From Candidatus Poribacteria bacterium (GTDB taxonomy: Bacteria; Poribacteria; WGA-4E; JAJDTR01): 64,000 nucleotides of DNA. The notes beneath the pieces were generated by a model. The model had not been told where the DNA came from. It saw nothing but the letters and a program-made list of their open reading frames with translations, and did not search any database. The stretch lies in NCBI GenBank assembly GCA_028820655.1, contig JAPPIK010000031.1:1-64000 (forward strand), given 5' to 3'. Positions 3,744 through 54,075 of this stretch are shown here, one piece after another (positions within the stretch are counted from its first letter, which is position 1; each line of letters begins with the position of its first letter). The position numbers and the translations under genes are program-made.

Positions 3744-3774
3744 GTTCGCCATAACTAGTATCGGGGCAGGGGGG

Positions 3775-3809
3775 GATCTCTATCGCCTTCGCTATCCGCT
3801 CAGTTGATC
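3775..3809 (+). repeat. 35-bp GATC element
   Basis: GATC to GATC spans exactly 35 bp; the core TCTATCGCCTTCGCTATCC matches the dispersed family described in the findings. Confidence 0.8.
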
Positions 3810-7428: not shown

Positions 7429-7513
7429 GATCAACCAAGTGAATAACGAGGGATCAAAGGAGCGAACAGCGACCGCGATAAAACTCCCATAGAGCTCTGC
7501 GTGCGATAGAGAT
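7429..7513 (-). repeat. Degenerate double GATC element
   Basis: GATC at 7429 and 7452 bound AAGTGAATAACGAGG and GGAGCGAACAGCGACCGCG units; the longer variant ending CTCCCATAGAG is present. Confidence 0.55.
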
Positions 7514-7694: not shown

Positions 7695-7729
7695 GATCTC
7701 TATCGTACTCGCTATTCACTCGCTTGATC
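7695..7729 (+). repeat. 35-bp GATC element
   Basis: GATC to GATC, exactly 35 bp, between CATCTTCAA and CCCGCTGGGGC. The same surroundings recur at 11777, 38653 and 40755. Confidence 0.85.
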
Positions 7730-11140: not shown

Positions 11141-11691
11141 TGGGCAACGGAACGACATCTAATTGTAAATCCTCTAGAATCCGGTGCAGTTGTTCTGACT
11201 CTGCCGCGCTGGGACAACACATCTGATTTTAGAGATGTAGAAGAATTGAAGGGTGGAAGGTAGATTGGGGAGTTAGTGATTATAGATGGAGGTGGTGTAG
11301 GTCGGGTTAAGTGGATGAATTCGTGTTGCTGCCAAGCACAATGAGACGGGCTGTTCCGAAATAGAATGCGACTCAATCATACGAGGCAAATAAACACTTT
11401 CAATGGTTTTAATCCTACACTCCGCACCTATTTTCAAAGTTTACGGGATTTATTGAAATCCTGTAAACCCGCGTGGTTACTAAATTTTTCAATTCTTGGA
11501 AATCCAATTGAGGATTATTTACGCGCCAAGCCCCAGAGGGGCGATAGGTGTATAGCAGCATCAGACCTCCCCCCATCAAAGCCCCAGCGGGGCGACAGGT
11601 CAATTACGTCTGGGGCATATCAACCGAATTAAAAACGGATGCTGAGTTGTTGCCTGTTAATATTTTCGATTGAAACGTGGTCCAGGTGTGG

Positions 11692-11726
11692 GATCTCTAT
11701 CGCACTCGTTATCCACTCGTTTGATC
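11692..11726 (+). repeat. 35-bp GATC element
   Basis: GATC to GATC, exactly 35 bp, followed by CCCTCTGGGGC. Confidence 0.85.
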
Positions 11727-11776
11727 CCCTCTGGGGCTTGAGTGTGTGGTCAATTTACGTTTCTATACACCTTCAG

Positions 11777-11811
11777 GATCTCTATCGCCTTCGCTATTCA
11801 CTCAGTTGATC
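11777..11811 (+). repeat. 35-bp GATC element
   Basis: GATC to GATC, exactly 35 bp, preceded by CACCTTCAG and followed by CCCGCTGGGGC. Confidence 0.85.
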
Positions 11812-18663: not shown

Positions 18664-18991
18664 CTAATCCGAAGGTTCGATTGCATAGTAGGTCCATAGT
18701 ACCCAACAATCGCTGATTCTAACTCTGTAGGAGCGACCTCCCGGTCGCGACAATCATTTGACCGATTGGCGTTGCTGCATCGTGTCTACCTTTAACACCT
18801 CTTTCCCAGCACCTGGATGGTGGGCAGAAGATTAGCTATCGCGCTCCCTATTCATTCGCGCCCTTTCACTCCATCTCTTCGCGTCTTCCAGCATACACAT
18901 ATTTCACTTGGATCAACCTTGAAGAAGTGATAAAATGGATTGGATTACGCAAATCATAACAAACCCCTGAATCAAACATTCGAAGACACTC
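18664..18991. other. Intergenic region with REP and promoter
   Basis: Holds a REP-like hairpin (18727-18748), a degenerate GATC element (about 18830-18862) and a probable promoter: TTGGAT (18908-18913), spacer 17, TAAAAT (18931-18936), for the PhyH gene at 18992. Confidence 0.5.
18727..18748 (+). repeat. REP-like hairpin, GTAG + GCGACC stem
   Basis: GTAG (18727) then GAGCGACC-TCCC-GGTCGC; same family as 21008, 22006, 44586, 45528 and 48842. Confidence 0.65.
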
Positions 18992-21931: not shown

Positions 21932-21966
21932 GATCAAATGAGCGAATAGCGAATCCGATAGAGATT
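21932..21966 (-). repeat. 35-bp GATC element (GATC...GATT)
   Basis: Exactly 35 bp, reverse orientation: ATGAGCGAATAGCGAATCC core; preceded by GGTAGTAG. Confidence 0.75.
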
Positions 21967-22005
21967 CCCGTGTGCCGTAAACCTTCTTTCACCACCCGAC
22001 TGTCG

Positions 22006-32689: not shown

Positions 32690-32923
32690 CGCCAAATCCG
32701 AGCCTTCATTGAACGACTTTGGCGCAGTGTTAAGTATGACGAGGTTTACCTCAACGACTATGACTCGATGAACACGGCTCGGAGGCGCTTGAGAAATTAT
32801 TTCAACTTTTACAACCGAGAGCGGTCACATCAATCGCTCGATTACCGTGCACCAGCAAGCGAGCGGATAGCGAGTGCGGTAGGGATCCGTACGAGGAGTA
32901 TTTTCACTAACATCAGGCGTTGA
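32690..32923 (+). pseudogene. IS3-family transposase (OrfB) C-terminal fragment
   Basis: FIERLWRSVKYDEVYLNDY and YFNFYNRERSHQSLDYRAP are the end of an IS3 DDE integrase core, including the last acidic region. The N-terminal three quarters are missing; upstream codons to 32567 are unrelated. After the normal end (DYR-P) the frame runs on into a GATC-type repeat, adding ASERIASAVGIRTRS. Confidence 0.85.
32855..32887 (-). repeat. GATC element at the IS3 fragment end
   Basis: AAGCGAGCGGATAGCGAGTG ... GATC; reverse orientation, left GATC missing. Confidence 0.6.
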
Positions 32924-32955: not shown

Positions 32956-33172
32956 TAACGCAAGTTGCTACCTATAACAGAGTTTCTGTGCCCCCGTCGA
33001 TCAAGGGTGGCAACTTGGGTTATATTGTAACCCTGCTCGGCTTGGATAGACATATCCAAGCCGTATCCACATGTGTGTAGTGGATTTGTCAATCCACTAC
33101 GAGCAGATTCAGTTGCTATTACGTACTTTGCCCCGGTTTCCGACGCATTCTATAGGAGGATCGGGCTAGAAG
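32956..33172 (+). repeat. Composite hairpin repeat, copy 1
   Basis: Contains CGGCTTGGATA-GACA-TATCCAAGCCG (33038-33063), GTAG + TGGATT-TGTC-AATCCA (33077-33096) and the start of a minus-strand REP GGTCGGGCTTCTAGCCCGA. A third, diverged copy is at 38177-38319. Confidence 0.8.
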
Positions 33173-33182
33173 CCCGACCTAC
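33161..33182 (-). repeat. REP-like hairpin TCGGGCT/AGCCCGA
   Basis: Perfect 7-bp stem with AGA loop; on the minus strand GTAG (33182-33179) precedes it. This is the uninterrupted form of the site that carries a GATC element at 33498. Confidence 0.65.
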
Positions 33183-33220
33183 GGGAATGGGTAGCAACTT
33201 GCGTTACTACGAGCCTGACG

Positions 33221-33238
33221 CACAATGAATTGTGCTAC
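33221..33238 (-). repeat. REP-like hairpin CACAAT/ATTGTG
   Basis: CACAAT-GA-ATTGTG, with GTAG on the minus strand at 33238-33235. A weaker copy follows at about 33255-33272. Confidence 0.5.
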
Positions 33239-33272: not shown

Positions 33273-33490
33273 TAACGCAAGTTGCTACCTATAACAGAGT
33301 TTCTGTGCCCCCGTCGATCAAGGGTGGCAACTTGGGTTATATTGTAACCCTGCTCGGCTTGGATAGACATATCCAAGCCGTATCCACATGTGTGTAGTGG
33401 ATTTGTCAATCCACTACGAGCAGATTCAGTCGCTTTTACGTATTTTGCCCCGGTTTCCGACGCATTCTATAGGAGGATTCGGGCTAGAAG
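33273..33490 (+). repeat. Composite hairpin repeat, copy 2
   Basis: Direct duplicate of 32956-33172 with only a handful of base changes. Its terminal TCGGGCTAGAAGC is broken by the GATC element that follows. Confidence 0.8.
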
Positions 33491-33497
33491 CTTAGAG

Positions 33498-33566
33498 GAT
33501 CTCTATGGGATTTCTATCGCACTCACTATCCGTTCGCTTGATCCGTGGCTATTCGTTCAGTTGATC
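33498..33566 (+). repeat. Compound GATC element inside a REP hairpin
   Basis: GATC at 33498, 33540 and 33563. The right flank CTACGGGAATGGG is the same as that after the intact REP at 33161. Confidence 0.75.
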
Positions 33567-33616
33567 CTACGGGAATGGGTGGCAACTCGCGTTACTTAAA
33601 TTTCCTCATTTTCTGT

Positions 33617-33756: not shown

Positions 33757-33941
33757 ATGGGGGTAGCTTTAGTCAATATTAAATGCAGCCCTCGAATTCT
33801 GACGCGGCCGCTCCGCCGCCCGCTCGATCTCCCTCCGATGTTGGGCCAAGAAGCCACGAATTGACACAGGGAGCGGCGTGGTCGAAAGCAAACCATTCTT
33901 CACGATTCCTTAACATGAACCAACATCGAAAGGAGATCCTC

Positions 33942-35546
33942 TTGAAAACGATACGGTTTATGCTCATCAGTCTAGTCCTCGCTATTGGACTGGGGTCCGT
34001 CAGTCGCCCCACCCTCGCGCAAAAAGAAGCCAAGCTAATCGGTGTCGAGGACGGACTATTCAATGAACATTTGTGCGCCGATATTATCGGGAACTCCGTG
34101 ATCGTCGGGGCACATAGCAAGAACATCGCGAAAATCTATGTAGGCGATGGCAAAAAGTGGAACCAGCAAGCGGAACTTACTACCGGTCCGGAAGCTAACG
34201 CCTTTGGATGGGCGGTCTCCCTCACCGGCCGCCATGATCGTGCTAGCGCGAACACTGCCATCGTCGGGGCGCCAAGCGACAATCATGCTGGAGCTAAGAA
34301 AAATGCCGGCTCAGCTTTTATCTTCGTCCGCAGTGGGGACTCCTGGAAACAGCAAGCGAAGCTTGTCGCTCCAGATCCGGAAGTCGAGGACGCTTTCGGA
34401 TCTGCCGTATCCATCGACCGGAACACGGCCATCGTTGGCGTACCGATGGACGATGAAGCCGGCAGAGACGCGGGGTCGGCCTATATCTTCGTTCGCGATG
34501 GCAACGCTTGGAAACAGCAGGCGGAGCTCGCCCCCCAAGATTTGGTGGGATTCGACGCTTTCGGAGGCGCCGTCTCCGTTCATGGGAACACCGCTATCGT
34601 CGGGGCAAGTGGGCACTCACATAGTGGCTTACGATTCCCCGGTGCCGCCTACGTCTTTGTGCGCGAAGGGACAACGTGGGTAGAACAAGCAAAACTCACG
34701 GCCGACGACGCAGGATCCAGCGACAGTTTCGGAAAATCTGTTGCCCTGTTTAACGACACCATCATCGTTGGGGCGCCAATAGCTGATATTGAGGGCAAGA
34801 AAGATGCCGGCGCTGCCTATGTCTTCGCGCGCGAGGGTGACACCTGGAAACAGCAGGTGAAGCTAATCCGCAAAGCCGAGAGGAAAGGCGATCAGTTCGG
34901 ATTCGGTGTCGCCGTCGCCGGGAACATCGCCATCGTTGGGGCCAATGGAGTGGAAGACGCCGGAGTGGGCTCGGGCGCCGCCTATGGCTTTGCACGTGTT
35001 GACGGCGTCTGGGAGGAGGAGAAGAAAGTCCAGCCCGAGGACGAGGGGCCAAGAATCAAGTTCGGCGCTTGGGTGGCTATAAGCAGCGGCATGGTCGCAG
35101 TCTCGGCTCATAACGCCCCCAATGAGGACGCCTGGTTAAACAGGGGTAACGGCGCGGCGGCGTATGTCTATAATAGCGTAGAAGATTTCGGCACACCGCC
35201 CTTTTTGGCCGTCGAGCCGTTTGGATTGAGAGTGACGACGTTGGGTCGGGTCAAGCGCACGGCACTGCTTCAAAACTTCCCCAATCCGTTTAACCCTGAA
35301 ACGTGGCTGCCGTACCGGTTAGCGGCCGATGCGCCCGTGACCCTTGGCATCTACAACGTCCGGGGACAACCGGTGCGGGAGTTGAATCTCGGGGTGCAAA
35401 AAGCGGGTGGCTATCTGACCCGAGAAACCGCCGCCTATTGGGACGGCAGGGACCACGTCGGAGAAACGGTTTCCAGCGGCATCTATTTCTACACCCTTCA
35501 CGCCGGCGCGTTCCAGGCGACGCGGCGAATGCTCATATTGAAATAG
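33942..35546 (+). CDS. Exported FG-GAP repeat protein with C-terminal sorting tail
   Basis: Predicted 534 aa from TTG 33942, 6-7 bases after AAGGAG; an in-frame ATG at 33915 and a long upstream frame are less likely because the TTG start places a signal peptide first (KTIRFMLISLVLAIGLG...TLA-Q). Seven or so FG-GAP/integrin-alpha-like repeats follow, each with DAFGxAVSVxGNTAIVGAP and GSAYIFVRDG. The last ~90 residues are the FlgD-Ig-like tail (QNFPNPFNPETWLPYRL, SSGIYFYTLHAG, MLILK). Probably a surface or secreted binding protein. Confidence 0.85.
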   Translation: MKTIRFMLISLVLAIGLGSVSRPTLAQKEAKLIGVEDGLFNEHLCADIIGNSVIVGAHSKNIAKIYVGDGKKWNQQAELTTGPEANAFGWAVSLTGRHDRASANTAIVGAPSDNHAGAKKNAGSAFIFVRSGDSWKQQAKLVAPDPEVEDAFGSAVSIDRNTAIVGVPMDDEAGRDAGSAYIFVRDGNAWKQQAELAPQDLVGFDAFGGAVSVHGNTAIVGASGHSHSGLRFPGAAYVFVREGTTWVEQAKLTADDAGSSDSFGKSVALFNDTIIVGAPIADIEGKKDAGAAYVFAREGDTWKQQVKLIRKAERKGDQFGFGVAVAGNIAIVGANGVEDAGVGSGAAYGFARVDGVWEEEKKVQPEDEGPRIKFGAWVAISSGMVAVSAHNAPNEDAWLNRGNGAAAYVYNSVEDFGTPPFLAVEPFGLRVTTLGRVKRTALLQNFPNPFNPETWLPYRLAADAPVTLGIYNVRGQPVRELNLGVQKAGGYLTRETAAYWDGRDHVGETVSSGIYFYTLHAGAFQATRRMLILK

Positions 35547-36086
35547 GAAGGAGCAGAGGGGAATGGTGTGCGGCCGTACTACCCCCTCTCAGTCTCCCCT
35601 TCGGGGGCGGACAGTTTGAGATGTACAACCTGAACGGTTACGGTAAGTGTTTAGTGGCTAGTGATTAGTGGTCAGTAAAAACCCTGAAGCCACGAGACGG
35701 GCAATGAATGGGATCTCTATCGCACTCGCTATTCACTCGCTTGAGGGGATCTCTATCGCCTTCGCTATCCGCTCAGTTGATCCTACTACGAGCCGGGAAA
35801 ATGAGCATCCACACCGGGCACGCCAAAAAAAGCAGAAAAGAGCGTCTAAATTCACAGCACTCGACCCCAGAAATCAATGGACTAAACAGTTTCGATAAAA
35901 GCTATTGTATAATGAAAACCATGTGGTGCGCATGGGCTCAGCAAGGGCAACGTGCTGTTGATGCCTTGAGAACAAGCGTGTCTCGATGAATTCTCTTCCG
36001 GATCCCAGCCTTACGAAGTCTCGGGATCTCGGAAGTCTAGAAACAATACCCTATCTGTCGTCAGCCGCATCAGGAATATAAGCATA
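35547..36086. other. Intergenic repeat region
   Basis: No gene. Contains a CCCC-TTC-GGGG hairpin at about 35596-35606, the tandem GATC element (35712-35782), and GGACTAAACAGT (35879-35890) like the MITE-D terminus. Confidence 0.55.
35712..35782 (+). repeat. Tandem pair of GATC elements
   Basis: GATC at 35712, 35748 and 35779; the second unit is exactly 35 bp. Followed by CTACTACGAGCC, a REP-type flank. Confidence 0.8.
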
Positions 36087-37874
36087 TTGAACGGTGCAAA
36101 AAAAACTGAATTCATTCCCGCCAGAGCCATTCTCATCGGGCTCATCCTTCTCCCGATAAATGCCTATTGGATAACCATTGTCAGCGAACTTTGGGCCACG
36201 ATGATAGGCATGAACGCAACATCATTGTTCTTCAACGCAGTCTTCAATCTCTTCTTCCTGATACTTATCAATCTCCCCCTCCGCAAATTCCTGCCTAACT
36301 TCGCTTTTTCGCGAACCGAACTCCTCACCATCTATGTGATGCTCGTGATGCTATCAACTGTCTGCGGGTACACGATGATGAGCTTCGTTATCGGCGGCCT
36401 GACACATCCGTTTTGGTTTGCCACGCCGGAAAATGAATATGCTGCACTCTTCCATAGATATATTCCCTCGTGGTTTACTGTTTCCGATAAGCGGGTGTTA
36501 AGAGGTTTCTTTGAAGGAGGCGAAACCTTCCACACCGCAGCGTATCTCAACACCTGGCTGATTCCCGTGCTTGTATGGACGGGGATTATATTCGCCATTT
36601 TTTTCACATTCATGTGTGTAAACATCATCATACGCAAGCAATGGACGGAACAGGACAAATTGAGTTATCCGATTATTCAAGTCCCGATCGAGCTGACCGC
36701 GCCACGCACGATGTTTCGCCCCCTTCTGTGGATTGGCTTTTCCGTATCTGCGCTGATTGAGATTATCAACGGTCTTCATCATCTTTTTCCCGTTATTCCC
36801 GGCATCCCGCTGCATTATGTCCATACCTTTACGGAAAGACCATGGACGCTGGGATGGATGAGATTCTCTTTTAACCCATTTGTAACCGGGTTGACATTCT
36901 TCGCGCCCTTGGACTTAGCGTTTTCTGTCTGGTTCTTCCACCTTTTCTTCAAAGCGCAACAGGTTATCGTGCATGTAGAGTTAGGATCAATGCCCTCGTG
37001 GGTTCCTGTCCGTGCCCACGGCATCTATGGGATGCAACAGGGACTTGGGGCATGGACGACGCTGGGTATTTTATCTCTATGGATGACCAGGCGGCATCTT
37101 CGCCAGGTATGGAGGATACTCGTTGGGCAACCCTCGACCCTCGACGATTCAACCGAACCGCTGCGCTACAGATTTGCCGTCCTTGGGCTGGTTCTTGCGA
37201 TGACTTTTCTGGTTCTTCTGCTCCAGCAAGCGGGATTATCCTTATCAGTGATGCTGTTTTATTTTGCGATTTACTTGCTGATGTCTATTGCCATCACGCG
37301 TGCCCGCGCTGTGCTCGGTCCGCCCTACCATCAAATTGTCTTCACTTCCCCGCAAGGATTTATGGTGGACGTGATGGGGACACGTGCGCTTGGCCCGAGC
37401 AATCTGACTATCCTATCCTTTCTATACGCTTTCAACAGAGAAAACACTTCTCATCCGATGCCGAACCAGCTAGAAGCCTTCAAGATCGCCGAGCGGACAG
37501 GCATAAACAATACCCGTATCCTGTTGGGTATGGTGCTCGCCTTGCTATTCAGTATACTGGTGTCGTTTTGGGCGTATTTCCATGTAATGTATAAACACGG
37601 TGTGGCCACAAAAGCACAAGGCCCACTAATGTATATGGGGTTTGAGTTCTTCAGACTGTTAACGTCATGGTTACAGTACCCTAAGGAGTCAAACTACACC
37701 GCTACGTTTTTCATCGGATTGGGCGGGGTATTTACGGTGTTTCTGATGGGAATGCAAAGACGATTTATCTGGTGGCCCTTTCACCCTGCCGGCTATGCGC
37801 TGGGTGCGTCATGGGGTATGTGGCATGTGTGGACATCAATCCTGCTCGGTTGGGCTATAAAGGGATTATCCTGA
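36087..37874 (+). CDS. DUF6785-like multi-pass membrane protein, frame interrupted
   Basis: Predicted 595 aa from TTG 36087 (AGGA 11 bases upstream). About a dozen hydrophobic helices; conserved with the intact paralogue at 41035-42984: LIGLILLPINAYWI, ELLTIYVMLV, FWFATPENEYAALF, WTEQDKLSYPIIQVP, SHPMPNQLEAFKIAER. The frame ends at TGA 37872 just after GWAIKG, but the last helix and tail continue at once in the -1 frame to 38017. Function unknown; the membrane architecture suggests transport. Family name is from memory of the sequence pattern. Confidence 0.7.
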   Translation: MNGAKKTEFIPARAILIGLILLPINAYWITIVSELWATMIGMNATSLFFNAVFNLFFLILINLPLRKFLPNFAFSRTELLTIYVMLVMLSTVCGYTMMSFVIGGLTHPFWFATPENEYAALFHRYIPSWFTVSDKRVLRGFFEGGETFHTAAYLNTWLIPVLVWTGIIFAIFFTFMCVNIIIRKQWTEQDKLSYPIIQVPIELTAPRTMFRPLLWIGFSVSALIEIINGLHHLFPVIPGIPLHYVHTFTERPWTLGWMRFSFNPFVTGLTFFAPLDLAFSVWFFHLFFKAQQVIVHVELGSMPSWVPVRAHGIYGMQQGLGAWTTLGILSLWMTRRHLRQVWRILVGQPSTLDDSTEPLRYRFAVLGLVLAMTFLVLLLQQAGLSLSVMLFYFAIYLLMSIAITRARAVLGPPYHQIVFTSPQGFMVDVMGTRALGPSNLTILSFLYAFNRENTSHPMPNQLEAFKIAERTGINNTRILLGMVLALLFSILVSFWAYFHVMYKHGVATKAQGPLMYMGFEFFRLLTSWLQYPKESNYTATFFIGLGGVFTVFLMGMQRRFIWWPFHPAGYALGASWGMWHVWTSILLGWAIKGLS

Positions 37875-38017
37875 GATACGGCGGATTAAGAGCGTATCGA
37901 AACGCCGTTCCATTTTTCATTGGGTTAATCTTGGGTGAACAGATTATCATCTGCATGTGGTCAATACTCGGCGCTGTGCTTGGGATACGGACTCTGACGG
38001 GTACAATACTCCATTGA
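37859..38017 (+). other. -1 frame continuation of the DUF6785-like gene at A_AAG_GGA
   Basis: Zero-frame codons AAG-GGA (37860-37865) preceded by A form the X_XXY_YYZ pattern. Slipping back one base yields GIILRYGGLRAYRNAVPFF and a stop at 38015-38017. The paralogue reads WVILKYGGLKAYRDAFPFF in one frame, so the continuation is genuine gene sequence. Confidence 0.75.
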
Positions 38018-38176
38018 ATTGAGAGATTGCGATCGAGATTATGGATTTGATTGTATCTTGAATCCTAAATCGTGCATCGGATGTAGGATTCAGGTGATTC
38101 AGGATTCAAGCTTGACTCAAATTGCCACCTATTGTTAATAGTTGAACTTGAATTTTTCCGAGTGTTGTATTGCGGG

Positions 38177-38324: not shown

Positions 38325-38435
38325 GATCTCTATCGCCTTGGGATCTACTATGGAATTTGCTATCGCGGTCGCTCTTCGCTCACTTGATCGTTCGTTATCC
38401 ACTCACTAAATCACTCGCTATTCGATCGTTTGATC
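38325..38435 (+). repeat. Compound GATC element after a broken REP
   Basis: Five GATC sites bound degenerate CTATCGC and TCGCTATTCG units directly after GGGCTAGAAGCC, the same point broken at 33490. Confidence 0.6.
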
Positions 38436-38567
38436 CCTTCAAGGGCTTAAGGGTTGGTGAGAGAATCTATTGACATGGCACTCCTCTGGAGTGCATAAAC
38501 GAGCACCTCCCGTTTCTATTAACATGCCGCCCCTCTGGGGCGGGGAATCGCGACTTGGAGATCGAGG

Positions 38568-38602
38568 GATTTCTATCGCACTCGCTGTTCGCTCGTTTGA
38601 TC
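38568..38602 (+). repeat. 35-bp GATC element (GATT...GATC)
   Basis: Exactly 35 bp, abutting GATCGAGG and the 3' half of a GCGATCTCCAAGTCGCG-type REP on the minus strand whose 5' half is missing. Confidence 0.8.
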
Positions 38603-38652: not shown

Positions 38653-38720
38653 GATCTCTATGGGAGTTCTATCCGTTCCCTATCCGGTCACTTGAACACT
38701 CACGATCCATTCGCTTGATC
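38653..38720 (+). repeat. Compound GATC element
   Basis: GATC at 38653, 38704 and 38717 between CACCTTCAA and CCCTCTGGGGC. Confidence 0.7.
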
Positions 38721-38741: not shown

Positions 38742-38762
38742 GGTGCGCAGTGCGCACCCTAC
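38742..38762 (-). repeat. REP-like hairpin GGTGCGC/GCGCACC with GTAG
   Basis: Palindrome 38742-38758; GTAG on the minus strand at 38762-38759. Uninterrupted form of the site disrupted at 40823. Confidence 0.65.
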
Positions 38763-38874: not shown

Positions 38875-39043
38875 TACCATTTCTGTATATTAGCAGTGCA
38901 TTAATAGCGTCAAACAAGCCTGTCCAAAGCGGGGCAAGGGGATTTCTATCGCACTCGCTGTTCGCTCGTTTGATTCCCGCCTACGGAGTAAGTGAACGAT
39001 ACAGTTAAGACATCATATGCACTGTCATTCAAGCGAAGTGATA
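38875..39043. repeat. MITE-B copy 2 with TTA target duplication
   Basis: TACCATTTC ... GAAGTGATA flanked by TTA on both sides. The unoccupied version of the site (ACTTATCACTGCATAG) exists at about 43964-43979 beside a paralogous gene end. Confidence 0.75.
38941..38975 (+). repeat. 35-bp GATC element (GATT...GATT)
   Basis: Exactly 35 bp, inside MITE-B copy 2; the homologous position in copy 3 carries the same element. Confidence 0.8.
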
Positions 39044-40135: not shown

Positions 40136-40301
40136 TTAGAACCTGTTTGAAAAGCCGGCAGCCAAGCCATCTTTCGTCATTTGAAGACATTTTTTTCATG
40201 TTTTTGTAATTGCTCGCTATATACCTTTGGGATCTCTATCGCACTCGCTATCCACTCGCTTGATTGCACCCTACAAATTGTGTTTTTCAAATAGGCTCTT
40301 A
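40136..40301. repeat. MITE-C copy 1
   Basis: TTAGAACCTGTTTGAAAA (40136-40153) faces TTTTCAAATAGGCTCTTA (40284-40301); contains a GATC element. Confidence 0.55.
40231..40265 (+). repeat. 35-bp GATC element (GATC...GATT)
   Basis: Exactly 35 bp, followed by GCACCCTACAAAT, the remaining right half of a GGTGCGC-type REP. Confidence 0.8.
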
Positions 40302-40754: not shown

Positions 40755-40789
40755 GATCTCTATCGCACTCACTATCCGTTCGCTTGATC
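40755..40789 (+). repeat. 35-bp GATC element
   Basis: Exactly 35 bp between CACCTTCAA and CCCTCCGGGGC. Confidence 0.85.
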
Positions 40790-40822
40790 CCCTCCGGGGC
40801 TTTTAAATGCCGGTGCGCGGGG

Positions 40823-40857
40823 GATCTCTATCGCACTCGCTATCCACTCGCTTGATT
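40823..40857 (+). repeat. 35-bp GATC element splitting a REP hairpin
   Basis: GATC...GATT, exactly 35 bp, between GGTGCGCGGG and GCACCCTACAAATGTAC: the two halves of the palindrome that is intact at 38742. Confidence 0.85.
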
Positions 40858-41034
40858 GCACCCTACAAATGTACTTTTCAAACAGGTTCTAATGGCGGAG
40901 GCAACAGGGTCTCCGTCGTGTCTGCGGCCAACTCAACATCAAGGAAAAGGGCTGGCACAATCATTATATCCAATGGCGTGTCTATGACCTAGACAACGGC
41001 CCCCTGAATGTGAATCATTCGACCCGAGCCAGTA

Positions 41035-43237: not shown

Positions 43238-43428
43238 TACCATTTCTATATATTAGCAGTGCATTAATAGCGTCAATCAAGTCTGTCCAAAGCGGGGCAA
43301 GGGGATTTCTATCGCTCTCGCTGTTCGCTCGTTTGATTCCCGCCCACGGGGGTTAGGTGTAAAGGGAAACAGTAGTCATAATAGTATATGGAAAGCACTA
43401 TATGCACTGTTTTTCAAGCGAAATGGTA
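43238..43428. repeat. MITE-B copy 3 with TAA target duplication
   Basis: TACCATTTC...GAAATGGTA, flanked by TAA (43235-43237 and 43429-43431). CAGTGCAT lies about 20 bases inside both ends. Contains a GATC element. Confidence 0.75.
43304..43338 (+). repeat. 35-bp GATC element (GATT...GATT)
   Basis: Exactly 35 bp, same place within MITE-B as in copy 2. Confidence 0.8.
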
Positions 43429-44453: not shown

Positions 44454-44518
44454 GATCAAGCATACGGATAGGATCAAACGAGTGAATAACGAGTGCGATA
44501 GAAATCTCATAGTTGATC
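44454..44518 (-). repeat. Compound GATC element
   Basis: GATC at 44454, 44472 and 44515; core AAACGAGTGAATAACGAGTG, reverse orientation, longer variant ending GAAATCTCATAG. Confidence 0.75.
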
Positions 44519-44608: not shown

Positions 44609-45121
44609 ACTCCCCGCTCCAGCGGAGTGCCATGTGAATCACGCGGCGCGATGTCCAATCCCGATAGAGCTTGCTGTTCCACGATTACTTCATCGTACTC
44701 AAACAGTCAACCCCTTTAAGAGATCAATGGAATGGATAATGAGATTAATCGATCAGAGAAGAAGCACGACCCAAATCATCAACGCCGACACACTTCCGAT
44801 AAACCGGTCGCCGCACTGCAGCGGAGTGCCATGTTTTTGGTTAACCCCTGCGACAAATCGCCATCAATTCCTCAATTTCCTCCCCCTCCGCGAAATCCGT
44901 ATAATCCGTTTAATCCGTGATTCAGACAATCCCCTCACCCAACCACCCCCTGCCATGTCGTATCCGCTTCCATTCTTCCTATCTTCCCGTTTTCTATCCT
45001 TCCAAACATCCATCACCCAATTGATGGGCGTCGGTCCCTGATGGAAATCAAGCGAATGAAGATGGAGCGCGATACTGCATCCAGATAGAAATCTTAATTC
45101 CCGCCTTCAGAGAGTTGCATC

Positions 45122-48394: not shown

Positions 48395-48500
48395 GTAGGA
48401 GTGATCAGCCGAGTGGATAGCGAGGGATAAAGTGAGTGAATAGCGAACGCGATAGAGTTCCCATGAAAATCCCTCTCCAGATCGCGATTCCCCGCCCCGG
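48395..48500 (+). repeat. REP hairpin interrupted by a GATC element
   Basis: TGTAGGAGTGATC (48394-48406) and CTCCAGATCGCGATTCC (48474-48490) are the two halves; between them lie AGCCGAGTGGAT, AGCGAGGGATA, AAGTGAGTGAAT and AGCGAACGCGAT units. Confidence 0.8.
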
Positions 48501-53626: not shown

Positions 53627-53746
53627 GCAGTCATGTTGGAAGACAGGGCAATCACCCCGGATTCTTGATTACTCTCAGTAACACTCGACATTGCGCTCCG
53701 CTGGAGCGGTGATTGGACGCATCATGATTCTATTGACATTGCACAG

Positions 53747-53782
53747 GATTTACTATCGCGCTCCCTATTCAGTCGCTTGATC
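53747..53782 (+). repeat. GATC element splitting a GCACTCC palindrome
   Basis: GATT...GATC, 36 bp, between GCACAG and CTCTGGAGTGC; the intact palindrome GGCACTCCTCTGGAGTGC is at 38475. Confidence 0.7.
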
Positions 53783-54075
53783 CTCTGGAGTGCGAGACGT
53801 GGCAAAATATCTAACATGGAACGCTTTTTCAAAGCTAACCAGGGTGTGAAAACCGGTGTTACCTGCCGAAAGAATTATACCGACAGGGATAATGGCGCAC
53901 TCTCAATTGTCAAATAGAATCTATCTCCGAATCAACAGTCTCCTGTTTTCAATCTTCTCTTGCTGCGTGGATCTTTCCGCAGTTGTTCTCTTGAGTAGTG
54001 CGTACTGCGCACCAGCCTTCTGTCATTCAACTTTACAATTCCGGATTTTACGTAACCATTCAACTATCACGTATT

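Follow-up and report, generated by a model that had tools for sequence, protein, structure and literature searches.

The GATC element and its copies in the window

The window analysed here is the whole 64,000-nt stretch at the start of contig JAPPIK010000031.1 (C39 in our numbering), taken from the 5.88-Mb assembly of a Candidatus Poribacteria bacterium (GCA_028820655.1, hereafter G000). Its intergenic DNA contains REP-type palindromes, several of which are interrupted by copies of one short repeat. This GATC element has the consensus GGATCTCTATCGCRCTCGCTATYCACTCGCTTGATY, with a unit of 36 nt and a conserved core of 30 nt. As listed in Table 1, an iterated profile search found about 21 good copies in the window. 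The profile search of an 864-kb sample, consisting of the window and 40 stretches of 20 kb picked blind to the element, gave 209 copies (E<1e-3) in 177 arrays, which extrapolates to about 1,400 copies per genome of G000. A genome-wide pattern search of G000 with the 30-nt core (up to 3 mismatches) returned 249 matches, and the reversed core returned 0. Named records with exact matches belong almost solely to Candidatus Poribacteria MAGs, and no Rfam family scored above its gathering score in the window.

The left end of the element is variable (RRGATC, AAGATTAG or AGGATTTA), while the 3' junction (TTGAT-Y) is precise. The two ends share only GGATC/GATC, and terminal inverted repeats of the MITE type were not found. 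An origin from GATC restriction fragments was rejected on the grounds that many copies start with GGATTTC, GGAGTTC or GGAACTC. The element can best be taken for a very small repeat that is non-coding and mobile; at about 36 nt, it ranks among the smallest mobile elements seen.

The first-pass annotation had noticed that copies split palindromes at 40823, 33498 and 53747, each with an intact version elsewhere in the window, and these sites do read as it described. At 33479-33570 an element array parts TCGGGCTAGAAGC from CCTACGGG, and at 53741-53793 GCAC is parted from CCTCTGGAGTGC, the intact version lying at about 38477-38493. The palindrome reported as split at 48395 is a TCCTAC-type REP holding a nested pair, which precedes ACTCCTAC and has its left stub just outside. 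The reading of 38568 needs amendment: the element there does abut a REP, but no 5' half is missing, as CCCCTCTGGGGC, the right-hand hairpin, is complete except for the CGC that an insertion usually replaces. It is the REP on the left, GCGACTTGGAGATCG, that has lost its CTCCTAC end, the 3' tag. It should be further pointed out that window positions 33100-33230 and 33400-33590 form a duplicated intergenic block (cgagcagattcag...gaggatcgggctag...), the second copy of which is broken by the nested array.

Table 1. Element copies, intact and interrupted REPs in the window, and REP pairs differing between the two species
Feature	Position	Strand	Basis
Element copy	3774..3809	+	profile
Nested element pair	7429..7487	-	profile, stub test
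Element replacing CGC in CACCTTC|CGC|CCC(T/G)CTGGGG	7695..7729	+	profile, empty site
Element replacing CGC before CCCCTCTGGGGC	11691..11726	+	profile, empty site
Element before CCCCGCTGGGGC	11776..11811	+	profile, empty site
Partial element after GGTGGGCAG	18836..18859	+	profile
Element between GGCACACGG and CTACTAC	21932..21967	-	profile, empty site
Element copy ending ...TTGCTGG	32856..32888	-	profile
Intact REP TCGGGCTAGAAGCCCGA-CCTAC	33161..33182		sequence
REP TCGGGCTAGAAGC...CTACGGG split by nested element array (~33492-33566)	33479..33570	+	sequence, profile
Two head-to-tail copies in REP GGGCAATGAAT...CTACTACG	35711..35782	+	profile, empty site
Array of nested and partial copies	38359..38435	+	profile
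Element between GCGACTTGGAGATCG (REP without CTCCTAC) and CCCTCTGGGGC hairpin	38567..38602	+	sequence, profile
Copy and partial copy abutting CCCCTCTGGGGC	38663..38720	+	profile
Intact REP GGTGCGC-AGT-GCGCACC-CTAC	38742..38762		sequence
Element in REP GCGGGGC...CCCGCCTAC	38940..38974	+	profile, empty site
Element followed by GCACCCTAC; left arm absent	40230..40264	+	sequence, profile
Element at 5' base of CCCCTCCGGGGC hairpin	40755..40789	+	profile, empty site
5' arm GGTGCGC of the REP interrupted by the next copy	40812..40818		sequence; paralogous empty site L025
Element copy that splits GGTGCGC/GCACC; its final base, 40857, is the Y that tracks the target	40822..40857	+	nhmmer E 4e-12
Remaining 3' arm GCACC and tag CTAC, GCACCCTAC; GTAG on opposite strand	40858..40866		sequence, paralogous empty site
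Element in REP GCGGGGCAAG|ATGC|CCCGCC; intact at matching sister-genome place (L135)	43303..43337	+	profile, orthology
Element copy	44472..44506	-	profile
Partial element copy	45047..45074	-	profile
Nested pair in TCCTAC-type REP: full copy and right stub	48403..48461	-	sequence, profile
GCACTCC-TCT-GGAGTGC hairpin, 5' arm split by element (~53745-53782)	53741..53793	+	sequence, profile, empty site
Intact/interrupted REP pairs	window 43303 vs L135; L100:18654 vs L021; L078:3779 vs L041		
Intact/interrupted REP pairs, continued	L102:19505 vs L128; L108:13835 vs L044; L025:7948 vs L116; L133:18609 vs L061		

Association with tagged REPs

GTAG, whose reverse complement is CTAC, is the tag of a large REP superfamily (PMC3733652). 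Deduplication left 148 element arrays in the 864-kb sample, and 45.3% of them had CTAC no more than 16 nt away on the 3' side. The control value was 4.9%, both for 8,796 non-coding positions within 1.5 kb of elements and for all 11,327 non-coding YGC sites; coding regions were masked crudely as open reading frames of at least 120 codons, in assemblies that are incomplete and have some masked stretches. Mirrored sites, with GTAG at most 16 nt before the element, made up 0% of the arrays versus 4.4% of the controls. Counted in 4-nt bins, CTAC occurred 47, 43, 4, 4 and 2 times to the right of the element and 0, 5, 1, 7 and 3 times to the left, so that 90 occurrences fell in the first 8 nt downstream and about 3 per 4 nt thereafter. 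The tag was completely strand-asymmetric (about 81 arrays versus 0, P about 1e-24). In the genome of the sister species, G001, 39% of the element arrays had CTAC within 16 nt downstream.

The proposal that the element preferentially breaks REP-type palindromes is hereby borne out, at about 9-fold over matched non-coding positions, and with about eight palindrome families entered the target is, as the first-pass annotation held, not one sequence. The opposite outcome, no enrichment once copies are counted, is refuted by the 864-kb sample. In a second test, 43 of the 108 reconstructed empty sites (see below) lay within a strict hairpin where 9.2 were expected, in a set that is biased towards repeats. 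Complementarity of the flanking arms (stem of at least 6) did not separate element sites from controls, because the insertion mostly deletes part of one arm. Coincidence might also be considered, as REPs fill the intergenic space and any intergenic repeat would often fall in one. The non-coding DNA of G000 is indeed REP-rich, but the low value at matched positions near the elements and the complete strand asymmetry refute this explanation.

Empty sites and the target core

Flank-to-flank searches in two genomes found an uninterrupted site for 147 of 398 arrays (108 after deduplication). These counts use strict limits; earlier loose limits had listed some filled sites. Permutation of the flanks is no null for them, because flank families are shared. 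Examples in REPs and hairpins are CAG|TGC|CCACCCTAC, CAG|TGC|GCACCCTAC, AGA|TGC|CCCGCCTAC and AAT|TGC|ACTACTAC, and further ones are GAT|CGC|TCCTAC, TGT|CGC|CCC(T/G)CTGGGG, GCA|CTC|CGCTGGAG and the element's own sequence, TAT|CGC|RCTC. The replaced triple at 85 resolved sites was TGC (29), CGC (19), CTC (7), TTC (5), CAC (3) or TAC (2) in the commonest cases. Hence the core of the target was YGC at 48/85 sites and Y-N-C at 65/85, versus 3.2% and 12.2% of non-coding triples.

The last base of the element tracked the first base of the target (33 C and 0 T at C targets, 21 T and 18 C at T targets, P=1e-7). The simplest reading of this tracking is that the element would enter before the Y, which is usually kept while the next two bases are lost. 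T targets with a C end mean either that this rule has exceptions or that the paralogous reference sometimes has another base there; the within-genome empty sites are paralogues, and a single-base difference need not have arisen with the insertion. Since C targets never give T at element position 36, a single base may be paired or retained when the ends are joined.

Most empty sites lose bases (2-5 per targeted site, most targets being palindromes), and target-site duplications were not found among them. At AGT|GG-type repeats the insertion occurred without apparent target loss, as in another dispersed repeat with AGTGGTCAGTGGCCAGT-like units, at L023:13400-13560, L028:3420-3520 and L042:11050-11160.

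Polarity, position and self-insertion

The orientation of the element relative to the REP was nearly invariable, the ratios of right to mirrored copies per family being 33:0, 26:0, 21:0, 13:1, 28:1 and 24:0. As a palindrome is near-identical on both strands, this fixed polarity requires that an asymmetric tag or flank is read. Position within the hairpin matters as well: GGTGSGC REPs offer several YGC triples, yet the apical one, near the apex on the 3' side, took 33 insertions, versus 4 elsewhere. The position differed by family (loop/3' arm, 3' arm, 5' arm or 5' base).

Besides several REP families and two related BIME-like hairpins, the element enters itself. Self-insertion at CTAT|CGC|RCTC yields nested copies, and as the surroundings there contain no obvious hairpin, hairpin structure alone is not the target. 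Left and right stubs flanked inner copies jointly (both in 32 cases, neither in 254, one in 30 and 29; OR 9.3, P=4e-12). On this co-occurrence, a cleaner test than a noisy parse of the arrays, we rejected the idea that arrays arise mainly by simple tandem duplication; some other arrays are plain head-to-tail repeats.

The earlier suggestion that the target is the structure or its processing rather than a sequence is accordingly only partly right. The hairpin counts through the position taken in GGTGSGC REPs, but not as the whole target, given the fixed polarity, the YGC core, the family-dependent position and the self-insertion.

Covarying hairpin in the element

Column composition over 207 copies showed near-invariant positions alternating with freely varying ones. 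Among 329 distinct copies, the top three column pairs by corrected mutual information were 18-26, 15-29 and 14-30, and the pair 19-25 likewise covaried. RNAalifold, run on 60 randomly drawn copies, returned exactly these four pairs, nested. When the structure was fixed beforehand, 90.8% of the cells paired; double-change cells numbered 57, versus 9.4 in shuffles, which ignore relatedness, and at most 12 with the partner slid. At 15-29 and 18-26, 8 of the 9 combinations of the commonest pair types occurred, and between near-identical copies partner positions changed together far more than non-partners. Therefore, the pair changes arose repeatedly. The folding energy of the single consensus was not below that of shuffles, and the structure thus rests on covariation.

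The two strands are not equivalent in this fold. All four pairs form in 76% of the copies on the GTAG strand versus 40% on the top strand, and the mismatches are A.C and T.C on the top strand, while the other strand has G.T and a tandem G.A. The working strand is therefore the one on the GTAG side, 5'-RATCAA-NN-GA-NN-GRATA-NN-GA-NN-GCGATAGAGATCC-3' (its 3' end is also written GCGATAG); that is, the strand of the element that folds is the one carrying GTAG in the REPs entered. The stem contains GA/GA in 293/329 copies, and these tandem G.A would be sheared pairs. The predicted hairpin, described here for the first time, consists of four nested pairs and the conserved tandem G.A, and is by the evidence of covariation kept by compensatory changes. 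As a whole, the element can with high confidence be described as a structured, oriented, REP-targeting mobile repeat.

Sister species and distribution

G000 and G001 are about 85% identical. At least seven REPs were intact in one species and interrupted at the matching place in the other (Table 1). The simplest reading of this polymorphism would be insertion into an existing REP; single cases may come from gene conversion by intact REPs, or from comparison with a paralogue. Orthology over 1.2-kb flanks often failed because intergenic regions turn over fast, and the sites counted have well-matched flanks on both sides. The in-depth comparison covers one sister genome, G001.

A covariance-model search found the element in abundance in G000, G001 and a further relative, G004, in lower numbers in G014 and as a single copy in G010, whereas 53 other relatives lacked it. 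A pattern search located it in 7 of 84 genomes of the phylum. The copies of G014 are confined to a few contigs and may represent transfer or contamination. Two loci deserve separate mention. Window positions 33867-38033 are 91-95% identical to L055 (JAJDUM010000013.1, Poribacteria MAG bzbins.78), above the sister-genome norm of about 85%, which means either recent transfer or bin contamination. L088 (JAAXGO010000317.1), a contig under a Rhodothermales label, contains the element and matches the Poribacteria loci at 82-89% identity; it is probably a misbinned Poribacteria contig.

Mechanism and candidate enzyme

The results are best explained, with a probability of about 0.6, by a mobile hairpin repeat that moves as a folded single strand, a Y1/HUH transposase being the leading candidate for the enzyme. 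The element would move either as RNA or as single-stranded DNA exposed in replication, and the insertion of the folded element with fixed polarity would fall to an enzyme that recognises the tagged strand of REPs. The candidate for this enzyme belongs to the RAYT / IS200 type of Y1/HUH transposases. Such enzymes act on single strands and use hairpins and short base-paired guides; these properties, together with the reading of only the GTAG strand of REPs, are why we favour it. TnpA_REP recognises GTAG plus the hairpin and cleaves the GTAG strand, and an inverted REP is neither bound nor cut (PMC8266576). Its cuts fall next to the hairpin, at C|T or C|A, the cleavage dinucleotides being chosen through the tag (PMC8266576).

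All element carriers have Y1_Tnp genes, seven of them in G000. In G004, a 6.5-kb region around a Y1_Tnp gene holds seven element copies, most of them at the REP-like hairpins next to the gene. At L141:4200-6900 (contig C9 of G004, 92-95 kb), a RAYT-like Y1_Tnp gene lies amid dense ACCTGTCGCCCCGCTGGGGC-type hairpins, several with the element, which suggests that these hairpins are RAYT-associated REPs without the GTAG tag. Y1_Tnp genes were found in 56 of 58 relatives, most of them without the element, so their presence does not single out the enzyme; as a marker it was rejected, being nearly universal in the order. Insertion of the IS200/IS605 type is not known to lose target bases. Two observations speak against a Y1/HUH enzyme: the partial loss of YGC does not match the C|T or C|A cleavage of TnpA_REP, and neither the self target nor GAAT|CGC|GGATT has a GTAG tag. 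That such an enzyme moves the element is therefore plausible at somewhat less than even odds. Still more tentative, with the balance clearly against it, is the full proposal, in which an HUH transposase that reads REPs moves the 36-nt hairpin in the form of single-stranded DNA, and the hairpin lands on the tagged REP strand and on itself, as a parasite of the REP/RAYT system.

In a spread through RNA, a nick in the target would prime a reverse transcriptase to copy a small structured RNA, which would leave one precise and one variable junction. The precise 3' (TTGAT-Y) junction with its varying left end and the covarying hairpin with G-U-like wobbles on one strand would agree with it, and Elhai et al. 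reportedly proposed RNA intermediates for the small dispersed repeats (SDRs) of cyanobacteria. A domain search, however, found no RVT_1 in G000 or the carrier G004 and one weak sub-threshold match in G001, which disfavours reverse transcription; this absence is not final because the genomes are 92-96% complete. We consider the RNA route unlikely.

In a model along the lines of the first-pass annotation, a palindrome would suffer a cut (for instance from a hairpin nuclease) or faulty repair, and the abundant repeat would be captured as filler at the break. The loss of 2-5 bases from targets that are mostly palindromes and the apical preference in GGTGSGC REPs (33 vs 4) fit this model; it would not predict the fixed orientation, the constancy of the right end, the YGC core or the self-insertion outside hairpins, and these make it improbable. 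It is equally hard to believe that the element entered REPs a few times, after which RAYTs spread the element-carrying REPs as units. Copies in the same family are slightly more alike (identity 0.778 vs 0.752, 0/500 permutations) and composite repeats such as CACCTTCAAGATC...GATCCCCTCTGGGG recur, but the effect is small, a single REP family holds many element variants with different left ends, and the sister genome has intact REPs whose outer flanks match.

Comparison with known systems

MITEs are commonly defined by terminal inverted repeats and a duplication of the target. The element resembles them as a non-autonomous mobile repeat without genes, but it has neither feature and is only about 36 nt long, and this class was rejected; MITEs measure 70-300 bp (PMC3733652). 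REPs are the preferred target of insertion sequences from several IS families, such as IS1397, ISKpn1, IS621, ISPsy8 and ISPpu9/10 (PMC1525189). These share the target with the element, but carry their own transposase gene, whereas the element is a 36-nt non-coding sequence that enters many REP families and itself.

REPs and REPINs with their RAYT (TnpA_REP) are likewise short non-coding hairpin repeats in hundreds of copies, read on one strand, and the element sits in GTAG-tagged REPs and, in G004, beside a Y1_Tnp gene. Unlike them, it forms no REP doublet and interrupts REPs. RATCAA lies 5' of its hairpin and no GTAG or CGTC tag was found there; because the tag is absent, the element is not a REP by definition.

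The closest kind, compared by description, is the very small mobile repeats (SDRs) of cyanobacteria. From the 2008 work of Elhai et al., to which PMC4390886 and PMC3116915 refer, SDRs are said to be tens of nucleotides long, to occur in many copies, within other repeats and within themselves, and to show compensatory changes. SDR5 inserts precisely between nucleotides 3 and 4 of HIP1 (PMC4390886). The element is alike in its length of tens of nucleotides, high copy number, nesting in itself, compensatory changes and precise short core. It differs in phylum and sequence, in its size of about 36 nt, in the tandem G.A of the stem, in targeting tagged REPs with fixed polarity and in replacing 2-3 target bases.

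How sequences too small for classical transposon ends can spread has been an open question since the cyanobacterial SDRs. The present family offers near-exact before/after sites and high copy numbers, about 1,400 in G000 and hundreds in its sister species, and as its structure names the working strand and its target is strand-specific, the question of the enzyme becomes directly testable. If the hairpin were indeed mobilised as single-stranded DNA by an HUH enzyme, it would possibly be the smallest single-strand transposon known. The element thus links very small mobile repeats to the REP/RAYT system and is a good test case for how they move.
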